Shown here in pieces: positions 32,683 to 41,848 of a DNA stretch of 47,053 bases. Made by a program: the position numbers and the translations under genes. Every line of letters starts with the position of its first letter. The first letter of the stretch is position 1. Source of the stretch: Spirochaetes bacterium RBG_13_51_14. Lineage in GTDB: Bacteria; Spirochaetota; UBA4802; UBA5550. The DNA lies in NCBI GenBank assembly GCA_001829455.1, contig MIBH01000029.1, forward strand, positions 20,661 to 67,713, in the 5' to 3' direction. The notes below the pieces were generated by a model. The model saw only the letters and a list, made by a program, of their open reading frames with translations, was not told the origin of the DNA and did not search any database.

Positions 32683-34452
32683 TTGTATATTCCTCCCGAA
32701 ACATTAGACCTGATAAGAGGTAAGGTTGTCATTCAGGATGTAATCAGGCGATACGTGCCTTCCTTAAATAAAAGGGGCAAAAATTATATTGGACTATGCC
32801 CGTTTCATAAAGAGAAAACGCCTTCCTTCACCGTTTCTCCGGACAAGCAGATATTTTACTGCTTCGGGTGCCATACGGGCGGAAATATTTTTAATTTCAT
32901 TTCGAAAATGGAACGACTGGAGTTCCCTGAAAGCGTGAAGCACGTGGCCGGACTCGTCGGCATTGAGATACGTGAAGAAAAAAAAGGGGATGCGGCCGTA
33001 CGGGAATCGATATATCGTCTGAACAGGCTCGCCATGGATTTCTACCATGCTCATATCAAATCACCGGCGGGCAAGATGGGATTATCATACATAATGGGGC
33101 GGGGCGTTACCGGAAAAAGCATTGATGATTTCAGAATCGGGTACGCCCCGGATTCTTGGGACTTCCTTATCCGGGGTATCATAAGATCAAAAAAGGATTT
33201 CGAACTTGCCGATCAGGTCGGACTCATCAAACCGAGCCGGAACCGGGACGCCAGCTATTACGACGTGTTCCGGAATCGCATCATGTTCCCGATAATCGAC
33301 ATCAGCGGCAATGTGACCGCTTTCGGCGGAAGAACCATCGGCGATGATACCCGCAAGTATATCAATTCGTCCGAATCCGCGGTGTTCAAAAAGAGGTCCC
33401 TGCTGTATGGACTTGACCGGGCGCGGGATTCAATCAAGGACGTTGACCGGGCCATCGTGGTGGAAGGCTACTTGGACGTGATCGGGTGCCACCAGGCCGG
33501 CATTGAGAACGTCGTGGCCCCCCTGGGAACGGCCATTACCGTTGAACAGATACGGATGCTGGGGTACTACTGCAATGAGATCATTTTCATGTTCGATGCG
33601 GATTCAGCCGGCATGAAGGCGGCCGTGCGTTCGCTCGATTTATCCGAGGATTCTAATGTCCGCGTTCGGGTCGGCATGCTCCCCGAAGGCGATCCCTTTG
33701 AATTCATTACCGCGAAGGGGGTCCGCGAGTTCATGTCGGTGGTTGATTCGTCGGTGAATCCGGCTGATTTTCGCATAGCGCGCATTATGGATAATTACCG
33801 GGATATCGGCAGGGTGAACACCCTGCTGCAGCTTTTCGGCGTGGTCAGGGAAATGAAACTTGAGACGGAACGCAGCGCGTATCTGAAAAATATCGGATCT
33901 CTTCTTGACGTTGATGAGAACTCCGTCCGGGCCGATTTTAAGAATTTCTTAAACAGAGGGCAGACGCTTCTTCCCAAAAGCGAACAAACGCTTAAAAATG
34001 GGCAGTCCGATTTTATAACCAGGAGTTACCGTGACCTCATAAGCCTCATATGCCACTATCCGGAGCTGATAGAAAAAGCGGTTATAGACTACAACATTAA
34101 CGATATCCCGGATGAGCTGTCGCGGAATATCCTACACAAGATTTCTGAGTTATATAACGCTGATCAGCAGTTTACGATTGATAAAATATTTGACTTTTTT
34201 ACCAGCGGTCCGGAAATGGAACTCTTGAACAGAATGTTCAACACCGAATCCACCATCGCGAATCCCAGTGCCGCGTACACGGACATATTTATTAATATGA
34301 AGGTCCACGAAATTGACGGTAAGATTGATAAATACGCTTCATTGATCAAATCATCAACCGACAGGAACTTCCATGAGTATATAACAGAAATTGAAATTCT
34401 GCGCAGAGAGAAAGAGAAGCTCTCGCAGTATCGTTACAACAAGTTCATGTGA
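32683..34452 (+). CDS. dnaG: DNA primase
   Basis: KNYIGLCPFHKEKTPSFTVSPDKQIFYCFGCHTGGNIFNFI zinc finger; VVEGYLDVIGCHQAGIENVVAPLGTAIT Toprim; TTG start. Confidence 0.97.
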   Translation: MYIPPETLDLIRGKVVIQDVIRRYVPSLNKRGKNYIGLCPFHKEKTPSFTVSPDKQIFYCFGCHTGGNIFNFISKMERLEFPESVKHVAGLVGIEIREEKKGDAAVRESIYRLNRLAMDFYHAHIKSPAGKMGLSYIMGRGVTGKSIDDFRIGYAPDSWDFLIRGIIRSKKDFELADQVGLIKPSRNRDASYYDVFRNRIMFPIIDISGNVTAFGGRTIGDDTRKYINSSESAVFKKRSLLYGLDRARDSIKDVDRAIVVEGYLDVIGCHQAGIENVVAPLGTAITVEQIRMLGYYCNEIIFMFDADSAGMKAAVRSLDLSEDSNVRVRVGMLPEGDPFEFITAKGVREFMSVVDSSVNPADFRIARIMDNYRDIGRVNTLLQLFGVVREMKLETERSAYLKNIGSLLDVDENSVRADFKNFLNRGQTLLPKSEQTLKNGQSDFITRSYRDLISLICHYPELIEKAVIDYNINDIPDELSRNILHKISELYNADQQFTIDKIFDFFTSGPEMELLNRMFNTESTIANPSAAYTDIFINMKVHEIDGKIDKYASLIKSSTDRNFHEYITEIEILRREKEKLSQYRYNKFM

Positions 34453-34552: not shown

Positions 34553-36322
34553 ATGAGTAAAAAAGAGATGACGCTGGATGCCGTTCCCGAGGTCAAGAAA
34601 CTTATCGAACTCGGAAAACAGAACGGCGAAATAACCTATGATGAGATCAACGAGATACTTCCTGACAAGCTACTCAATTCAGAAAAAATCGACGACGTTT
34701 TTATATTGCTGAACCAGCTGGGTATCGAAGTGGTCGAAGAGTCGACCCGGAAAGAACAGGCCCTGCCGGGGGTTAAGAAGAAAAGCGGGAGCGCGTCGAA
34801 GAAAAACGTCGCGACCCAGAGCGAGGCGTCCCATGTCGACGATCCTATCCGTCTCTACCTGAAGGAGATCGGGAAGGTGTCGCTCCTTTCGGGCGACCAG
34901 GAGGTTGACCTAGCCAAACGAATTGAAGCGGGCGAGATCCTGATAGAAGAGACCGTGTATAACTCTTCGCTGCTGATAAACGACCTGATAAAAAACTATT
35001 CGAAAATCAAAAGCGGAAAGATCAAGCTCACCGACGTGCTGAAAGTCAACCGCCTCTACTACTTTTCGTCGGTTGACCTGGACAAGCTCGAGAAGAAGTT
35101 CCATGAGACCATGAAGGTCATCATCGAAGATGACAACAGAATGATACAGATGGGGAACAAGCTCAAAAAGGTCGATCCCGAGTCCAAGAAGGCGGAAGAA
35201 TACACGACGAAGATGGTGACCGCAAAGGCGAATATACGCAAAACCATAAGAAATTTGGACATCAACGATAACGAGATAAACAAGCTGTCGGCGAAGATCA
35301 AGTCGATGGTGGCCCGGATACAGGAGACCTATGAGTTCTTCATGGATATCGAGGACAAATACCGCAAGGACCTGAAGGAGCTTAAGCACTTGGCCCGGAA
35401 GCTGGAAAAGGGCGAAACCGTGACGAAGATCGTCAGGGAGTTGGGCATGAAAAACAAGGACGAGCTCCTGGAGGCGATCAAGAACGTCCGGAACAACGAG
35501 CGGAAGATCCGGAGAATCGAGCAGGAGGCGGGCGCCTCGGCCGACGATATCATGGAATGGGGAAAGCAGATAAACTCCGGGCAGAGGAAAATATCGGTCG
35601 CCAAGAAGGAGCTCATCAACGCGAATCTGCGGCTGGTGGTGTCCATCGCGAAAAAGTACGCGAACCGCGGCATGCACTTCTTTGACCTGATACAGGAGGG
35701 CAACATCGGCCTCATCAAAGCCGTGGATAAATTCGAATACAAAAAGGGATACAAGTTCTCAACCTACGCGACATGGTGGATACGCCAGGCCATCACGCGC
35801 GCCATTTCGGACCAGGCCAGGACCATCCGGGTTCCGGTTCACATGATCGAGCAGATAAACAAGGTGATGCGGGAGACGAGGCTCTTTCAGCAGGAATTCG
35901 GACGGGAGCCGAGCCCGGAGGAGCTGTCCGACCGGCTGGGATGGGTCGTCGGGAAGGTCAAGGCGGTCAAGAACGTCGCACGGGAGCCCATATCCCTCGA
36001 AACCCCCGTCGGCGAAGAGGAGGATTCCCTGCTGGGGGATTTCATCGAGGACAAGGAAGTCGATTCGCCCGCGAATACGGCCGCGTACCGGCTCCTTTCC
36101 GAGCAGATCAATACGGTCCTTTCCACGCTTCCGGCCCGCGAGCAGAAGGTCATCAGGATGCGATTCGGGCTCGATGACGGGTATTCGCATACCCTTGAGG
36201 AAGTGGGATACGTGTTCAAAGTCACCAGGGAACGGATACGGCAGATCGAGGCAAAGGCGCTGCGGCGGCTGCGGCATCCGACCAGGGCCCGCAAGTTAAA
36301 AGATTATCTGGACCACGCCTGA
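34553..36322 (+). CDS. rpoD: RNA polymerase primary sigma factor RpoD
   Basis: [42 protein letters not shown]-terminal [19 protein letters not shown]. Confidence 0.98.
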
Positions 36323-36375: not shown

Positions 36376-38703
36376 ATGCGCCAGATAAAAAGAGTCGCCA
36401 TTATCGGTGCCGGATCATGGGGTACCGCGGTAGCGAAAAATATAGCGGAGTCGAAGCCGCATATCACCGTGCGATTCTGGGCCCATGAGAAACCAGTCGC
36501 CGCGTCAATCAATACAACCCACGAGAACGCCGCGTTCCTGCCGGGCGTGAAGCTCCCCCCCAACATCACGGCGACGAACAACCTGAAGGAAGCGCTGGAT
36601 GGCGCCGATGTTGTGTTGCTGGCAACTCCCTCACGGGTGGTGTACGACATGTCACAGCGCATGGGCAGATTCATCATGGACGACATGCATGTCGGCTTTC
36701 TTACCAAGGGCTTCTGTAAAGTCCAGAATGAGATATTAACGATCTCCCAGACCATGGAAAGGGCAATCCCCCGTTTGAAGGGAAAAGTCGTCGCCATCTC
36801 GGGGCCGAGCCACGCTGAGGAGGTGTCCCTGAGGTTTCATACCTGCCTGAATGTCGCGAGCACTAACGCGGGGTCCCGCGCCGCCGTGGCTTCGCTTCTC
36901 GAATCTGAATATCTCCGGTGCCGCGAGACCGAGGACATCCGCGGCGTCGAAGTGGGGGGCACGCTCAAAAATCCGGCGGCGATTGCGGCCGGCATGATCA
37001 GCGCGCTGCCCCGGTGCGGGGATAACCTCGCCGGCGCCCTCATCTCGGAGGCGCTCAAGGAGATGGTGCGGCTGGCCGAAGCGTTCAACATCAGCCGCGA
37101 GAGCATGCTGGACATCTCGGGCCTGGGCGACCTTGTGGCCACCGCCCTGAGCAGGCACAGCCGTAACCGGAGGTTCGGCCGGGACATAGCCGGCCAGATC
37201 ATGACCAAAGGCAGGACCCTGAGCCTCTGGGACCGTATGGCGCTGAGAATCAGGCCTGAGAGCGTGATCGAACGGATGAGCGAGAAGCTCCATTACCTGG
37301 CCGAAGGGGCATACGCCATCGAACCCATTATAGATTTTGCTGAATCGAAGAACATCTCCATACCCGTATACCGTGCCCTTTACGAAGTTCTCCTGAACAA
37401 GAAGGACCCGTCCCTGCTCATAGAGACCATCAAGAATCCGGAACGGTTCGACGAGCTCTTCTTCAGTACGAAAATCCATATTTCAGACAGGAAGAAGGGC
37501 CTTGAGCGGGTGAAGGGAAAGGTCTTCAGGAGCATGATCATATCCCTGACCGTGGAAAAGTTTCTCTCGAATCAGGGCGGTGGCAGCGCGGCACCCGGGC
37601 CGGCGGCGATAATCAGGACGCTCAGAGAGATCAATGGCGCGCACGCGGGCGGCTCGCCGGCAGGCGATGACGGCCGTGAAGCCGGGATCATTGCACGGCT
37701 CAACAGCGGGAATTACGCTGAATCAGTGCGCCAGCTTTCACGCCTGTATATCAATGGCATCACTGACAATTTCCATTCAGCGTTCAAATGGATATTTTTC
37801 ATATTTATCGCTTTCATCCGTATAGCAGCAATTCTGAAGCGGAAGAAGGGCGGAGTGACGATTTCTGGACGGCTGGATGATGTCCGGCGAATCAAGCAAT
37901 CCGTCAACATCCTGTATGTCGCGGACAACACCGAAGCGTATCATCCAATCTTCCCGGTCCTGGCGATGGTCAGAAAAAGGCTTCCGTATCCGCGCTTCTT
38001 CATCGACGCGGACGCGACGCACCCGCGGGACATTTTCGTGCTGAAGCGATGCGGAGGGTTTGTCGTCGATACGAAAAAGCTCTCCAATCCGGTATACCGC
38101 GAGACCCTGTGCAGCTACCTGTCCACGCTTGCCGGCCACGGAGTGCCGATTCTCTATTTCACCTCCCGCGGCCGCGGCGGGAGCGACGCGCCCGAATGGA
38201 ATGAATTCCTGTCAGCCGTTACCGAAACGCTGTACCGGCACGCGGTGGAGCTGGCCCTGATCCCGGTCGAGATTTCGTATCTGCGCCGGCCCGCCGTGGT
38301 CGGCGGCCGAGCCGCCCGCTACAGCGATCTCTTGTCAGCCGGCGCCCACGTGCATTTCTCGAAGCCGATATACCTGTCGGAATACACGAAACAGCCGCAT
38401 ATGATCATCGGCCTTTCCGGAATTATCGCCACAATATGGAAGCAGGATCGAAAAATATTTCCGCATCACCTTCTTTGTAAAATACTGGCGGATAACAATT
38501 TCAGCATGAAATCCGACACGGCGGTGAAGCTGGCCAGGGATTACATGGGCCACGCCGGCCGGCGCTTCGACTACGCCCCGGCGAAAATGGTCAAGAAGGG
38601 AGCCCGGTTCCTCGAAGACAATGGCATAGCCACCCAATCGAATGGCTCCATAATAGTCCTCAACCGGGAACTGGCGGAATACTATGCGGGCTTGCTCGAA
38701 TGA
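36376..38703 (+). CDS. gpsA: NAD(P)-dependent glycerol-3-phosphate dehydrogenase fused to a PlsB-like acyltransferase domain with degenerate motifs
   Basis: Residues ~1-360: VAIIGAGSWGTAVAKNIA, GTLKNPAAIAAGM, SRNRRFG. Residues ~400-775: NILYVADNTEAYHP...FVLKRCGGFVVDT...YRETLCSYLSTLAGHGVPILYFTSRGRGG...LALIPVEISYLRRP, co-linear with PlsB blocks. Confidence 0.88.
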   Translation: MRQIKRVAIIGAGSWGTAVAKNIAESKPHITVRFWAHEKPVAASINTTHENAAFLPGVKLPPNITATNNLKEALDGADVVLLATPSRVVYDMSQRMGRFIMDDMHVGFLTKGFCKVQNEILTISQTMERAIPRLKGKVVAISGPSHAEEVSLRFHTCLNVASTNAGSRAAVASLLESEYLRCRETEDIRGVEVGGTLKNPAAIAAGMISALPRCGDNLAGALISEALKEMVRLAEAFNISRESMLDISGLGDLVATALSRHSRNRRFGRDIAGQIMTKGRTLSLWDRMALRIRPESVIERMSEKLHYLAEGAYAIEPIIDFAESKNISIPVYRALYEVLLNKKDPSLLIETIKNPERFDELFFSTKIHISDRKKGLERVKGKVFRSMIISLTVEKFLSNQGGGSAAPGPAAIIRTLREINGAHAGGSPAGDDGREAGIIARLNSGNYAESVRQLSRLYINGITDNFHSAFKWIFFIFIAFIRIAAILKRKKGGVTISGRLDDVRRIKQSVNILYVADNTEAYHPIFPVLAMVRKRLPYPRFFIDADATHPRDIFVLKRCGGFVVDTKKLSNPVYRETLCSYLSTLAGHGVPILYFTSRGRGGSDAPEWNEFLSAVTETLYRHAVELALIPVEISYLRRPAVVGGRAARYSDLLSAGAHVHFSKPIYLSEYTKQPHMIIGLSGIIATIWKQDRKIFPHHLLCKILADNNFSMKSDTAVKLARDYMGHAGRRFDYAPAKMVKKGARFLEDNGIATQSNGSIIVLNRELAEYYAGLLE

Positions 38704-38737: not shown

Positions 38738-40150
38738 TCAGACCCTGAGCAAATGTTCGAATGTTCCATAGAGCACCTGCACCAGCTGGGCGCGCCCTTC
38801 GATAGACCCCGACAATCCGTACAGGGCACTGCTTCTGGGTTTTGTTCCGGCTGCCGATTGTGCGTATGCAACTCCCGCGCGGAGATCATGCAGAAGTTGT
38901 TCGGCGATATCCGGCACCATGGTCTGCGGCATGGTGACGCAGAAATGAATCGCAGGCGGATTCTGCAGTCCGTTGAACCTCCATCCCTTTGATATCATAT
39001 AGTCGTTAACGTGATAGATATCAACCTGTTTGGAGCGAAGGCTGATGAGAAACGTCGGGTTTCCAATCACTTCCAGTTCAGGGATCTCACCCGCTCCCCG
39101 CTTGATCCGTTCAGCGATTTTCATAATGGCGGCGGCGGATCGCAGGTATCCTTCCTCCCCCAGGTATACCATCGCGGCCCAGGTCGATGCGGTCAGACCG
39201 CCTGACCGGCTTCCGGTCATCGACGGGGAAGCGTAGATGCCGCCGGGCCAGTGCGCCATTTGATAAAATTGATACCGGCGGAGCTTCAGGTTACGGTAGA
39301 GAACGACCGAATTTCCCTTGAGGCCAAAGCCGAATTTATGGGTATCGGCGGAGATGGACGTCAATCCGGGTAGACGGAAGTCAAAGACCGGCACGTCGTA
39401 GCCGAGCTTTTCGATCCACGGCAGGATAAAGCCGCCGAGGCAGCCGTCCACATGAAAGCCGATCCCGCGCGCCAGCGCGATATCGGACAACTCATCCATG
39501 GGATCAATCAGCCCGTATGGGTAATTGCCGGCGCTGCCGACAAGAGCGACGGTACGCTTGTTGATCAGCTTTTTAACTTTATCCGGTCTTACCAGGAAAT
39601 CAGTTTCATTCACCGGCGCCAGCACAATTTTTATTCCGAAATATTCACCCGCTTTGTGAAATGCCGGGTGCGCCGTGACGGGCAGGATTATCTCCGGCTT
39701 CGTTATATTTTTTTCCGCCCGGGCCATGTCTCGATACACCTTCATGGCCATCATGATGCTTTCACTGCCGCCGAACGTGACGCTGCCGCACACCTCGTCG
39801 TCCGGATTGCGGTCTCTCACTGCATCGCCGTTCAGCATTCTGGCCGTCATGGAGACAATTTCGCTTTCAAACTTCGACATGCTCGGACACAGATCAACCT
39901 GGAGGACATTGACGTGCGAATAGAGCGAAAAAATTTTATTGAGAAAGGCGCGGTGATCGTCACCCGCGTGATAGAATGTGCCGGATACCATGCCGTTTTT
40001 CCATTTCGCATCCTCCTCTTCCGCCATGGCCGAGAGCTCTCTGAATATATCCTCCCGGTCCCTCCCTTTTTCAGGGAGCCGCTCATAGCTCTTGTAACGA
40101 TTCTTGTAGGGTTTGAAGGGATCTTTGAATCCGCTCTTCTGGTCCGACAT
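38738..40150 (-). CDS. sphingosine-1-phosphate lyase-like PLP enzyme
   Basis: MVSGTFYHAGDDHRAFLNKIFSLYSHVNVLQVDLCPSMSKFESEIVSM; FGGSESIMMAMK; SADTHKFGFGLKGNSVVLYRN PLP-lysine motif. Confidence 0.92.
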   Translation of the reverse strand: MSDQKSGFKDPFKPYKNRYKSYERLPEKGRDREDIFRELSAMAEEEDAKWKNGMVSGTFYHAGDDHRAFLNKIFSLYSHVNVLQVDLCPSMSKFESEIVSMTARMLNGDAVRDRNPDDEVCGSVTFGGSESIMMAMKVYRDMARAEKNITKPEIILPVTAHPAFHKAGEYFGIKIVLAPVNETDFLVRPDKVKKLINKRTVALVGSAGNYPYGLIDPMDELSDIALARGIGFHVDGCLGGFILPWIEKLGYDVPVFDFRLPGLTSISADTHKFGFGLKGNSVVLYRNLKLRRYQFYQMAHWPGGIYASPSMTGSRSGGLTASTWAAMVYLGEEGYLRSAAAIMKIAERIKRGAGEIPELEVIGNPTFLISLRSKQVDIYHVNDYMISKGWRFNGLQNPPAIHFCVTMPQTMVPDIAEQLLHDLRAGVAYAQSAAGTKPRSSALYGLSGSIEGRAQLVQVLYGTFEHLLRV

Positions 40151-40177: not shown

Positions 40178-41848
40178 TTATCCGTTCAATGCGGCGAATA
40201 TCCGTTTATTTCTGATGAACAATTGACGGAACTGTCCGTACATGGTATCGTAAACAGGGCGGTTGGCTTCATTCGGCTCGAAGACCTTTTTGATCTTTAC
40301 CAAATCCGCCAGCTCCTCGATGGTGCGGCAGCCGAGCTTGTTGAACGCGAGCATTGCCGCGCCGCGGAGCGTCGTTCGCGCAGGATCGGCAACCTGATGA
40401 ATGGGCACCCCCAGTACGTCTGCATGGATCTGGGCCCATATGTCGGAGAGGGCTCCTCCGCCGGCGAATCTGAAGTTCGTGAATGGACGGCCGGTGAATG
40501 TTTCCGCCGACCCCATCGTCCAGCGGTTATTATAGGCAAGACCTTCCATGACGGCCCGGGTCATGTGTCTCCGTGTTGAACCGAGGGAGAGGTTGAAAAA
40601 ACCTCCACGGGCGCTGCCGTTTTCATCCGGCGTCATCGTCCCGTTCAGCCAGGGCATGAAGATGATACCCTCGCTGCCGGCTGGCGTACCAGCGGCCATG
40701 CTGTCTGCCCGCGCGTATACGTCACCCGGCATCGGGCCCGTCTCGAATTCATCGTCGGCATAAACGATGTTATTGAGATAGAACTCAAGGGCCTTGCCGC
40801 CCGTAAGCTGTTCGGCCATCATGAGGTACCGGTTCTCCAGCGGACTCGGCATTGTGGTAATGGTGTGGAAGAGGTCCGTCTTTTTAAAGGGAAGATGGCA
40901 GGTAAGAACCAGGGAAGTCCCGATACATATGATTCCATCGAAATCGCGAACCACTCCGGAGCCGATGGCCGAGGCGTTGGTGTCATTAGTTCCCGCGATC
41001 ACCCGGGTGGAAGCGGGCAACCCCAGTTCATCCGCGACGGAGGGGAGGAGGGTGCCGATGAAGTCCTTGTTGGGTACCAGTTCGGGAAATTTTTCCCGCT
41101 CGAGACCGGCACACTTCAGAAGTTTGTCGCTGTATTCGGTGCTGCCCCATATACGGTTGTCCACGACCAGCATGGGTATGACGGTTTCCTGTGAGGCCGC
41201 GCATCTACCGGTGAGGCGGAAGTTCAGGTAGTCCATCGGTTCAAGGAATTTCCATGTTTTCCTGAAAATTTCGGGACGCTCGTTCTTTATGAACAGGATA
41301 TGGGCCAGGGAATCGACCCCGGACCGAGTGGGGGCGAGACCGGTCAATCTGACCCACCGGATCAATTTGCTCAGCCCGTATCCCCTGATGCTGGGGAAAC
41401 CCCGGATTACCTCGCGGTTGTACCGCGCGCCGCGTGAATCCAGCCAGTGGACCGCATTCATCAACGGGTCGCCGTTTTCATCGATCGGAAGTACGACCGA
41501 CCACTGCGATGTGCAGCTGACGGCCTGGATGCTATCGGGAGAAACCCGGGATTCGCTGACGGCCTTCCGTGCGGATCTGATGACGCCTTCCCACCACGCA
41601 CCGGGTTCCTGCTCGGCGCCCCCCCGGGGAAGGATATGGATGGGAACCCGTTCTGCGGCGCTTGATTTAACCTCCCCGGTGTCGGATACTACCGCGGCCT
41701 TCGGTCCGCCGCTGCCGAGATCGATTGCAAGCACGTACCGCTGCGTCGCCGGTGGGTTGTCATCTTTTTTCGGGTCGCTTTGCATTACTAATTTCTTGAC
41801 TGCGCTCATCATCATAATAAGATTGTTGGCTATATTGCCATTGATCAT
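40178..41848 (-). CDS. FGGY-family carbohydrate kinase (xylulokinase-like); start uncertain
   Basis: LAIDLGSGGPKAAVVSDTGEV; AGTNDTNASAIGSG; FRFAGGGALSDIWAQIHADVLGVPIHQV. Confidence 0.92.
   Translation of the reverse strand: MINGNIANNLIMMMSAVKKLVMQSDPKKDDNPPATQRYVLAIDLGSGGPKAAVVSDTGEVKSSAAERVPIHILPRGGAEQEPGAWWEGVIRSARKAVSESRVSPDSIQAVSCTSQWSVVLPIDENGDPLMNAVHWLDSRGARYNREVIRGFPSIRGYGLSKLIRWVRLTGLAPTRSGVDSLAHILFIKNERPEIFRKTWKFLEPMDYLNFRLTGRCAASQETVIPMLVVDNRIWGSTEYSDKLLKCAGLEREKFPELVPNKDFIGTLLPSVADELGLPASTRVIAGTNDTNASAIGSGVVRDFDGIICIGTSLVLTCHLPFKKTDLFHTITTMPSPLENRYLMMAEQLTGGKALEFYLNNIVYADDEFETGPMPGDVYARADSMAAGTPAGSEGIIFMPWLNGTMTPDENGSARGGFFNLSLGSTRRHMTRAVMEGLAYNNRWTMGSAETFTGRPFTNFRFAGGGALSDIWAQIHADVLGVPIHQVADPARTTLRGAAMLAFNKLGCRTIEELADLVKIKKVFEPNEANRPVYDTMYGQFRQLFIRNKRIFAALNG

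Follow-up and report, generated by a model that had tools for sequence, protein, structure and literature searches.

In a window of 47,053 nucleotides, the whole stretch of DNA analyzed here from Spirochaetes bacterium RBG_13_51_14, one gene joins GpsA, the glycerol-3-phosphate (G3P) dehydrogenase, to a domain related to the acyltransferase PlsB. The reading that we favor, with a probability of roughly one half, is that the protein consists of a working GpsA and a dead PlsB-fold domain derived from an ancestral fusion, and that the dead domain now acts as a docking module that couples G3P synthesis to the membrane and to PlsB.

Little is understood of how bacteria balance the supplies of G3P and of acyl chains in the first step of making phospholipids, and when consecutive enzymes are fused, physical coupling is naturally suspected. 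In the protein described here a single chain makes the coupling permanent, and it appears to have outlasted the loss of the second active site. A relative with that site intact is available for comparison; the comparison could show whether, and why, GpsA and an acyltransferase need to be held together. In Escherichia coli the activity of PlsB sets the flux by means of an unknown post-translational control (PMC7439487). Fusions of consecutive enzymes have precedents, and so do pseudoenzymes; their combination, with an intact relative at hand, is new, and the open-access literature searched, the coverage of which was incomplete, yielded no account of a GpsA-PlsB fusion. Automated annotation calls the protein simply GpsA and so leaves half of it out of sight throughout an entire class in which it is conserved.

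The fusion gene and its GpsA half

The reading frame of the fusion has no internal stop and lies directly downstream of rpoD. The features of the region, in positions of the window, are the following:

32683..34452, dnaG, preceding rpoD
34553..36322, plus strand, rpoD, directly upstream of the fusion
36376..38703, plus strand, gpsA::psi-plsB fusion gene, 775 amino acids (open reading frame; kept in 38 genomes)
36376..37440, plus strand, GpsA domain, residues 1-355, catalytic residues intact (NF000942, E 8.8e-78)
37201..37263, plus strand, GpsA insert of about 20 residues, at about residues 276-296 (alignments)
37441..37596, plus strand, linker, residues 356-407, with the short conserved stretch TKIxxxxRKKGLExxxGxxF (consensus)
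37597..38412, plus strand, putative pseudo-acyltransferase core, residues 408-679, aligned with PlsB (hhalign E 1.2e-13; 9vuq E 9.7e-11)
37777..37836, plus strand, hydrophobic helix FHSAFKWIFFIFIAFIRIAA, residues 468-487 (helix in the AlphaFold2 model, homologous to a PlsB helix)
37927..37944, plus strand, motif I equivalent NTEAYH replacing HX4D, residues 518-523 (alignments)
38059..38073, plus strand, motif II equivalent FVVDT replacing AYAVDR/AFFMRR, residues 562-566 (alignments)
38161..38184, plus strand, motif III equivalent TSRGRGGS replacing EGTRSRTG, residues 596-603 (alignments)
38263..38265, plus strand, motif IV proline P630 (invariant in 37 of the 37 fused domains compared)
38413..38700, plus strand, C-terminal helical region, residues 680-775 (common to the fusions of family f34, described below, over its full length)

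Four long loci retain the order dnaG-rpoD-gpsA, and a further three retain rpoD-gpsA. Convergent to the fusion are the genes of a PLP-dependent decarboxylase-family protein (38738-40150, minus strand) and of an FGGY-family kinase (40178-41848, minus strand); the same pair adjoins the fusion in a second locus (L032).

Residues 5-352 match NF000942 with an E value of 8.8e-78 and 261.8 bits, above the curated cut-off of 257, and PF01210 and PF07479 both score above gathering in this half. The GxGxxG motif (G11, G13 and G16), K111, K198 (in GTLKNPAAIAAGM), D252, R263 and N264 are conserved with E. coli GpsA and retained in effectively all of the 38 fusions, and T256 is likewise present in the window protein. 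The complete GpsA with a conserved lysine that had been recognized in an earlier note on this DNA is thus borne out by the profile score and by K111 and K198, and the window fusion is predicted to encode a working NAD(P)-dependent G3P dehydrogenase.

The fusion was found in 38 genomes belonging to six families among 59 relatives, and a scan of the host's class, for which 46 genomes were available, returned the same 38; in a 39th genome (G019) the fusion is cut off by a contig end a short way into the fused domain. Conservation of the fusion had been proposed earlier as a check, and with 38 of the 46 class genomes carrying it, in six families, it is not confined to one assembly; an assembly artefact or a single-genome oddity was rejected on the same count. 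Stops are absent from the reading frames across the fusion genomes, the fused domain is retained at about 280-410 residues in the six families, and none of the 38 genomes has a strong gpsA match other than the fusion (in one of them, G045, it is split over contigs), so that the GpsA half looks essential. In the four genomes of family f3, of the same class, a standalone GpsA takes the place of the fusion, and its grouping with the fused GpsA was rejected in the GpsA tree (AU p 0.004). Three genomes (G017, G018 and G033) show neither a fusion nor a standalone GpsA, which may reflect incompleteness. The plasmid records searched contained ordinary GpsA matches only.

A PlsB-fold domain with altered motifs

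The C-terminal domain of the window protein, searched alone, has no match in Pfam, NCBIfam or PDB, so that its recognition by eye was needed; the likeness to PlsB is clear once 37 relatives are added. When an alignment of 38 fused domains (A1) was compared by hhalign with an alignment of 31 PlsBs (A3), the probability was 98.1 and the E value 1.2e-13, and A1 searched against the PDB sequences retrieved a single entry, the glycerol-3-phosphate acyltransferase 9vuq (E 9.7e-11). PF01553 is matched by 17 of the 38 fused members searched singly, and the plsB HMM matches several fused domains directly (best E 3.6e-14). For TIGR03703, which has a cut-off of 618.5 bits, the window domain gave no match and the best fused domain reached 52 bits. 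GPAT_C (PF19277) was not found in the window domain; the separate PlsB of the host has it (E 6.8e-53). An AlphaFold2 model of residues 360-775 (pLDDT 86.1, pTM 0.85) was compared with the PDB using Foldseek, and human GPAT1 (8e4y; E 3.5e-13, probability 1.00) and squash GPAT (E 5.2e-4, probability 1.00) were the only structural matches below E 0.001. In the full-length model (pLDDT 83.9, pTM 0.64) the relative placement of the two halves is unreliable. The PlsB-like domain suggested by the earlier note, and the fold that it had set as a check, are therefore recovered by profile comparison and by the model alike; on these grounds the residues after GpsA are assigned to a predicted PlsB/GPAT-fold domain. 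Its C-terminal helical region (680-775) resembles the C-terminus of a short PlsB paralogue and is missing in family f5 and a few other members.

The hydrophobic stretch FKWIFFIFIAFIRIAAIL, which had been put forward as a possible means of recruiting GpsA to the membrane, exists in the window (Kyte-Doolittle 19-residue mean of 2.25) and aligns with an ordinary PlsB helix. The hydrophobicity at this position exceeds 1.6 in just 16 of 38 homologues, and a conserved transmembrane anchor was rejected for this reason.

In glycerol-3-phosphate acyltransferases motif I is catalytic, motifs II and III bind G3P, and motif IV is catalytic or binds acyl-CoA (PMC4207751, PMC7613133). The window has N, H, D-T, S, R and P at the motif residues I to IV. 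The alignments agree with the earlier placement of NTEAYH at HxxxxD and of FVVDT at motif II, where the aligned equivalent of GAFFxRR is GGFVVDT. The motif III block reads YFTSRGRGGSD; its Glu is replaced by Ser, and the Arg that happens to occupy the EGxR position looks like chance, so that TSRGRGGS had rightly been taken for a lost motif, with an exact pairing that was off by about one residue. Of the 37 fused domains compared, 2 retain the His of motif I and 31 its Asp, 9 retain the Arg of motif II, and 11 and 3 retain the Glu and the Arg of motif III, respectively; the motif I His and Asp never occur together with the motif III Glu and Arg (0/37). All these residues are intact in the 32 PlsBs and the 15 f34 fusions compared. 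The positions that are invariant across the fused domains are D464, P539, R540, G560, Y581 and P630. At motif II, VDR is present in 15 of 15 intact fusions and in the genus-mates of the host; the fused lineage probably never had RR at this place and its ancestral form looks like VDR, in which case the change in the window would be from VDR to VDT. The loss of this block, as reported earlier, stands, and RR was probably not its ancestral state.

From these replacements we infer that the fused PlsB-fold domain is catalytically dead. It could be argued that the domain still transfers an acyl or another group using different residues, given that two fused domains (L018 and L020) have both H and D at the motif I positions, and that yeast Loa1 is active with a Cys replacing the motif I His (PMC7613133); nonetheless, motifs I and III are nowhere kept together, and the replacements vary by lineage (F, Y, A, L, G, N), none of the lineages sharing another nucleophile in their stead, which makes an altered enzyme very improbable.

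Of the 38 genomes with the fusion, 35 also encode a separate full-length PlsB; that of the host (G000:C58) has HKSHMD, GAFFMRRSF and EGGRSRTG intact, which answers the earlier question of a separate motif-intact PlsB in the same genome. One genome (G011) has a short PlsB paralogue only, without the full-length protein. In two others (G028 and G041, with assemblies 96 and 98 percent complete) the fusion is present and a full-length PlsB was not found, possibly because of a gap or because another acyltransferase is used. PlsX is absent from all 46 genomes of the class and PlsY is present in few of them; a PlsY-like gene (G000:C43:55333-55854) occurs in the host and its genus, and PlsY without PlsX is odd. 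The host also encodes a third PlsB-family protein of 511 residues with intact motifs and an N-terminal hydrophobic segment (L141:1277-2809, minus strand, G000:C54); this protein occurs in many genomes of the class.

A fusion with intact motifs in another class and the probable origin of both

In a phylum-wide search of 296 genomes, A1-type matches were obtained in 16 genomes of family f34, which belongs to another class. The matches span almost the whole fused domain (E 1e-46 to 1e-62), and most of the proteins are GpsA-acyltransferase fusions of 800-877 residues (L163-L178) in which HRSHLD, GAYAVDR, EGTRSRTG and VPLALSY are intact. This fusion, which would be bifunctional judging from its residues, is the sole plsB-HMM match in the f34 genomes; PlsY is also present in 7 of the 16, and a separate strong GpsA match in 13. 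In one locus (L169; G195:C1:19500-24500) a fusion of the f34 type is split within the GpsA half into open reading frames of 169 and 568 residues; the break leaves the acyltransferase part open and could be a sequencing error.

In the GpsA tree, from which the insert of about 20 residues was left out, the fusions of the host's class and of f34 fall on one side of a branch with a support of 98-99, and joining either set with the standalone GpsA of its class-mates was rejected (AU p 0.004 each). The insert itself is common to both sets of fusions and is found neither in E. coli GpsA nor in the standalone GpsA of spirochaetes. With the A1 profile the f34 domains score 165-207 bits over nearly the full length, the linker included, and for PlsBs the score does not exceed 46 bits and covers the core only; since this profile was built from the host's class, the scores compare f34 with PlsB only. 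The acyltransferase tree groups both sets with a support of 93, which becomes 99 after the catalytic columns and the fast rows are removed. Taken alone, this tree does not reject the PlsB of the host, or the short paralogue, as the source of the domain (AU p 0.43 and 0.39); these sources are not favored in view of the full-length and far higher f34 score. The same two values are what could be said for two independent events, in which GpsA would have been joined to a PlsB-type domain once in the host's class and once in f34, the copy of the host being dead already or dying alone; this is very improbable, given that the GpsA tree groups both sets, that the insert is shared, and that the order is the same and the domain matches over its full length, including the linker and the C-terminus. 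The best reading of the sequences is that both fusions descend from one ancestral GpsA-PlsB fusion, which was probably bifunctional. Because the sister fusion has intact motifs, the dead domain would be the decayed half of a fusion and not a PlsB copy that was added dead.

The host's class and f34 differ in the half that diverges faster. In the host's class the mean identity is 58 percent for the GpsA halves and 30 for the acyltransferase cores, with GpsA higher in 666 of 666 pairs, and in f34 it is 40 and 63 percent, with GpsA lower in 91 of 91; the pairs are not independent, and these counts describe a pattern and give no probability. Within a genus, within a family and between families of the host's class, true PlsB cores are 84, 69 and 65 percent identical, and fused cores 48, 32 and 25 percent. 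In the f34 GpsA half GPSFAxE and T256 are altered, and K111, K198, D252, R263 and N264 are nearly all kept, which weakens the idea of a mirror-image dead GpsA in this family.

Real loss in a GpsA half was seen only in fusions of reverse order, termed type C (L206:1083-3221 and L207:942-3053, both on the minus strand, and L208, a partial open reading frame). These proteins of about 700 residues, found in f34 and in G049 (family f11), carry an HX4D acyltransferase followed by a GpsA-like domain; the acyltransferase motifs are intact, GxGxxG is gone, and the catalytic R and N are gone in most members. In Leptospira interrogans the gene MY479_RS05255 is named gspA in a table that gives its product as 1-acyl-sn-glycerol-3-phosphate acyltransferase, and the accompanying text calls gpsA a G3P dehydrogenase (PMC13066512); the gene may encode a reverse-order fusion. 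We consider as a tentative idea, and a rather doubtful one, that a single ancestral two-step enzyme, both G3P dehydrogenase and acyltransferase, has preserved its architecture in two classes of spirochaetes. Standalone proteins would have taken over, or be taking over, catalysis from one half in one class and from the other half in the other, and in each case the half without catalysis would persist as an internal regulator or scaffold of its catalytic partner. If this were true, the reverse-order fusions, in which the GpsA half is degenerate, would exemplify this principle independently.

Proposed role of the putatively non-catalytic half and comparison with known systems

We propose that an ancestral GpsA-PlsB fusion would have had both sites active, an architecture that persists in f34 with its acyltransferase motifs intact; that in the host's class the acyltransferase half would have lost its catalytic and substrate-binding residues, with the separate PlsB carrying out acylation; and that the folded dead domain would have been kept as a docking module by which G3P is produced at the membrane, next to the PlsB machinery. 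The module may also tune GpsA according to the status of PlsB or of the acyl chains. A non-catalytic role is argued by the retention of a folded domain of 280-410 residues on the only GpsA. Glycerol-3-phosphate acyltransferases are membrane enzymes. Docking appears the most likely role because the domain is a homologue of one of them, and because E. coli PlsB is reported to co-precipitate with ACP and PssA, suggesting a complex for phospholipid synthesis (PMC7439487). Against docking beside PlsB, G028 and G041 carry the fusion and a full-length PlsB was not found in them. Channelling of G3P through the fused domain, which the earlier note had entertained, is unlikely through the domain's own site, since the substrate-binding residues of motifs II and III are gone too.

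The dead domain could instead be a feedback sensor for acyl-ACP, acyl-CoA or lysophosphatidate, the binding of which would switch the attached GpsA with no need of docking to PlsB, so that G3P would be made only when acyl chains are available. The conserved PlsB fold, with the motif IV proline in 37 of 37 domains, the persistence of the motif I Asp in 31 of 37 despite the loss of the His, and the coupling to the only GpsA on a single chain would suit a sensor; its active-site region, however, is among the most variable parts of the domain, and the host lacks the motif I Asp as well, for which reasons we regard it as unlikely. Similarly unlikely is a structural relic, in which GpsA came to depend on the fused domain for folding or oligomerization by constructive neutral evolution, which would make the dead half impossible to lose even with no signalling or docking role. 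The fast divergence around a handful of invariant positions and the shortening in f5 are in line with a relic, but about 280-410 residues have been retained in six families, and the f3 genomes of this class do without the fusion, having a standalone GpsA that is not orthologous. The fast evolution (30 against 58 percent), the C-terminal loss in f5 and the unconserved hydrophobicity of the helix fit weak constraint as well as a new role. The docking module remains the reading that we prefer.

Compared with standalone GpsA (NF000942, PF01210/PF07479), the window protein is a full-length member with all the catalytic residues; the fusion adds the insert of about 20 residues before the EG motif, and a C-terminal domain of 375-420 residues that is found in no standalone GpsA. 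With PlsB (TIGR03703) and human GPAT1 (8e4y) the window domain has in common the fold, the order of the blocks, the pre-core helix and the motif IV proline; it differs from them in that it is placed behind GpsA, has neither the N-terminal region of PlsB nor a match to GPAT_C, and has lost motifs I, II and III. The short paralogue L141 of the host has a homologous acyltransferase core and a C-terminus similar to that of the fused domain; unlike it, L141 is a separate protein with HRSNVD, YFLRR and EGGLTRDG intact, and by its A1 profile score it is no closer to the fused domain than PlsB is. The type C fusions (L206, L207 and L208) resemble the window in having an HX4D-type acyltransferase and GpsA on one chain; in contrast, their order is the opposite, their acyltransferase motifs are intact and their GpsA half is degenerate. 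The f34 fusion shares with the window the order of the domains, the GpsA insert and the homology of the C-terminal part over its full length, whereas its acyltransferase motifs are intact and GpsA is its diverging half.
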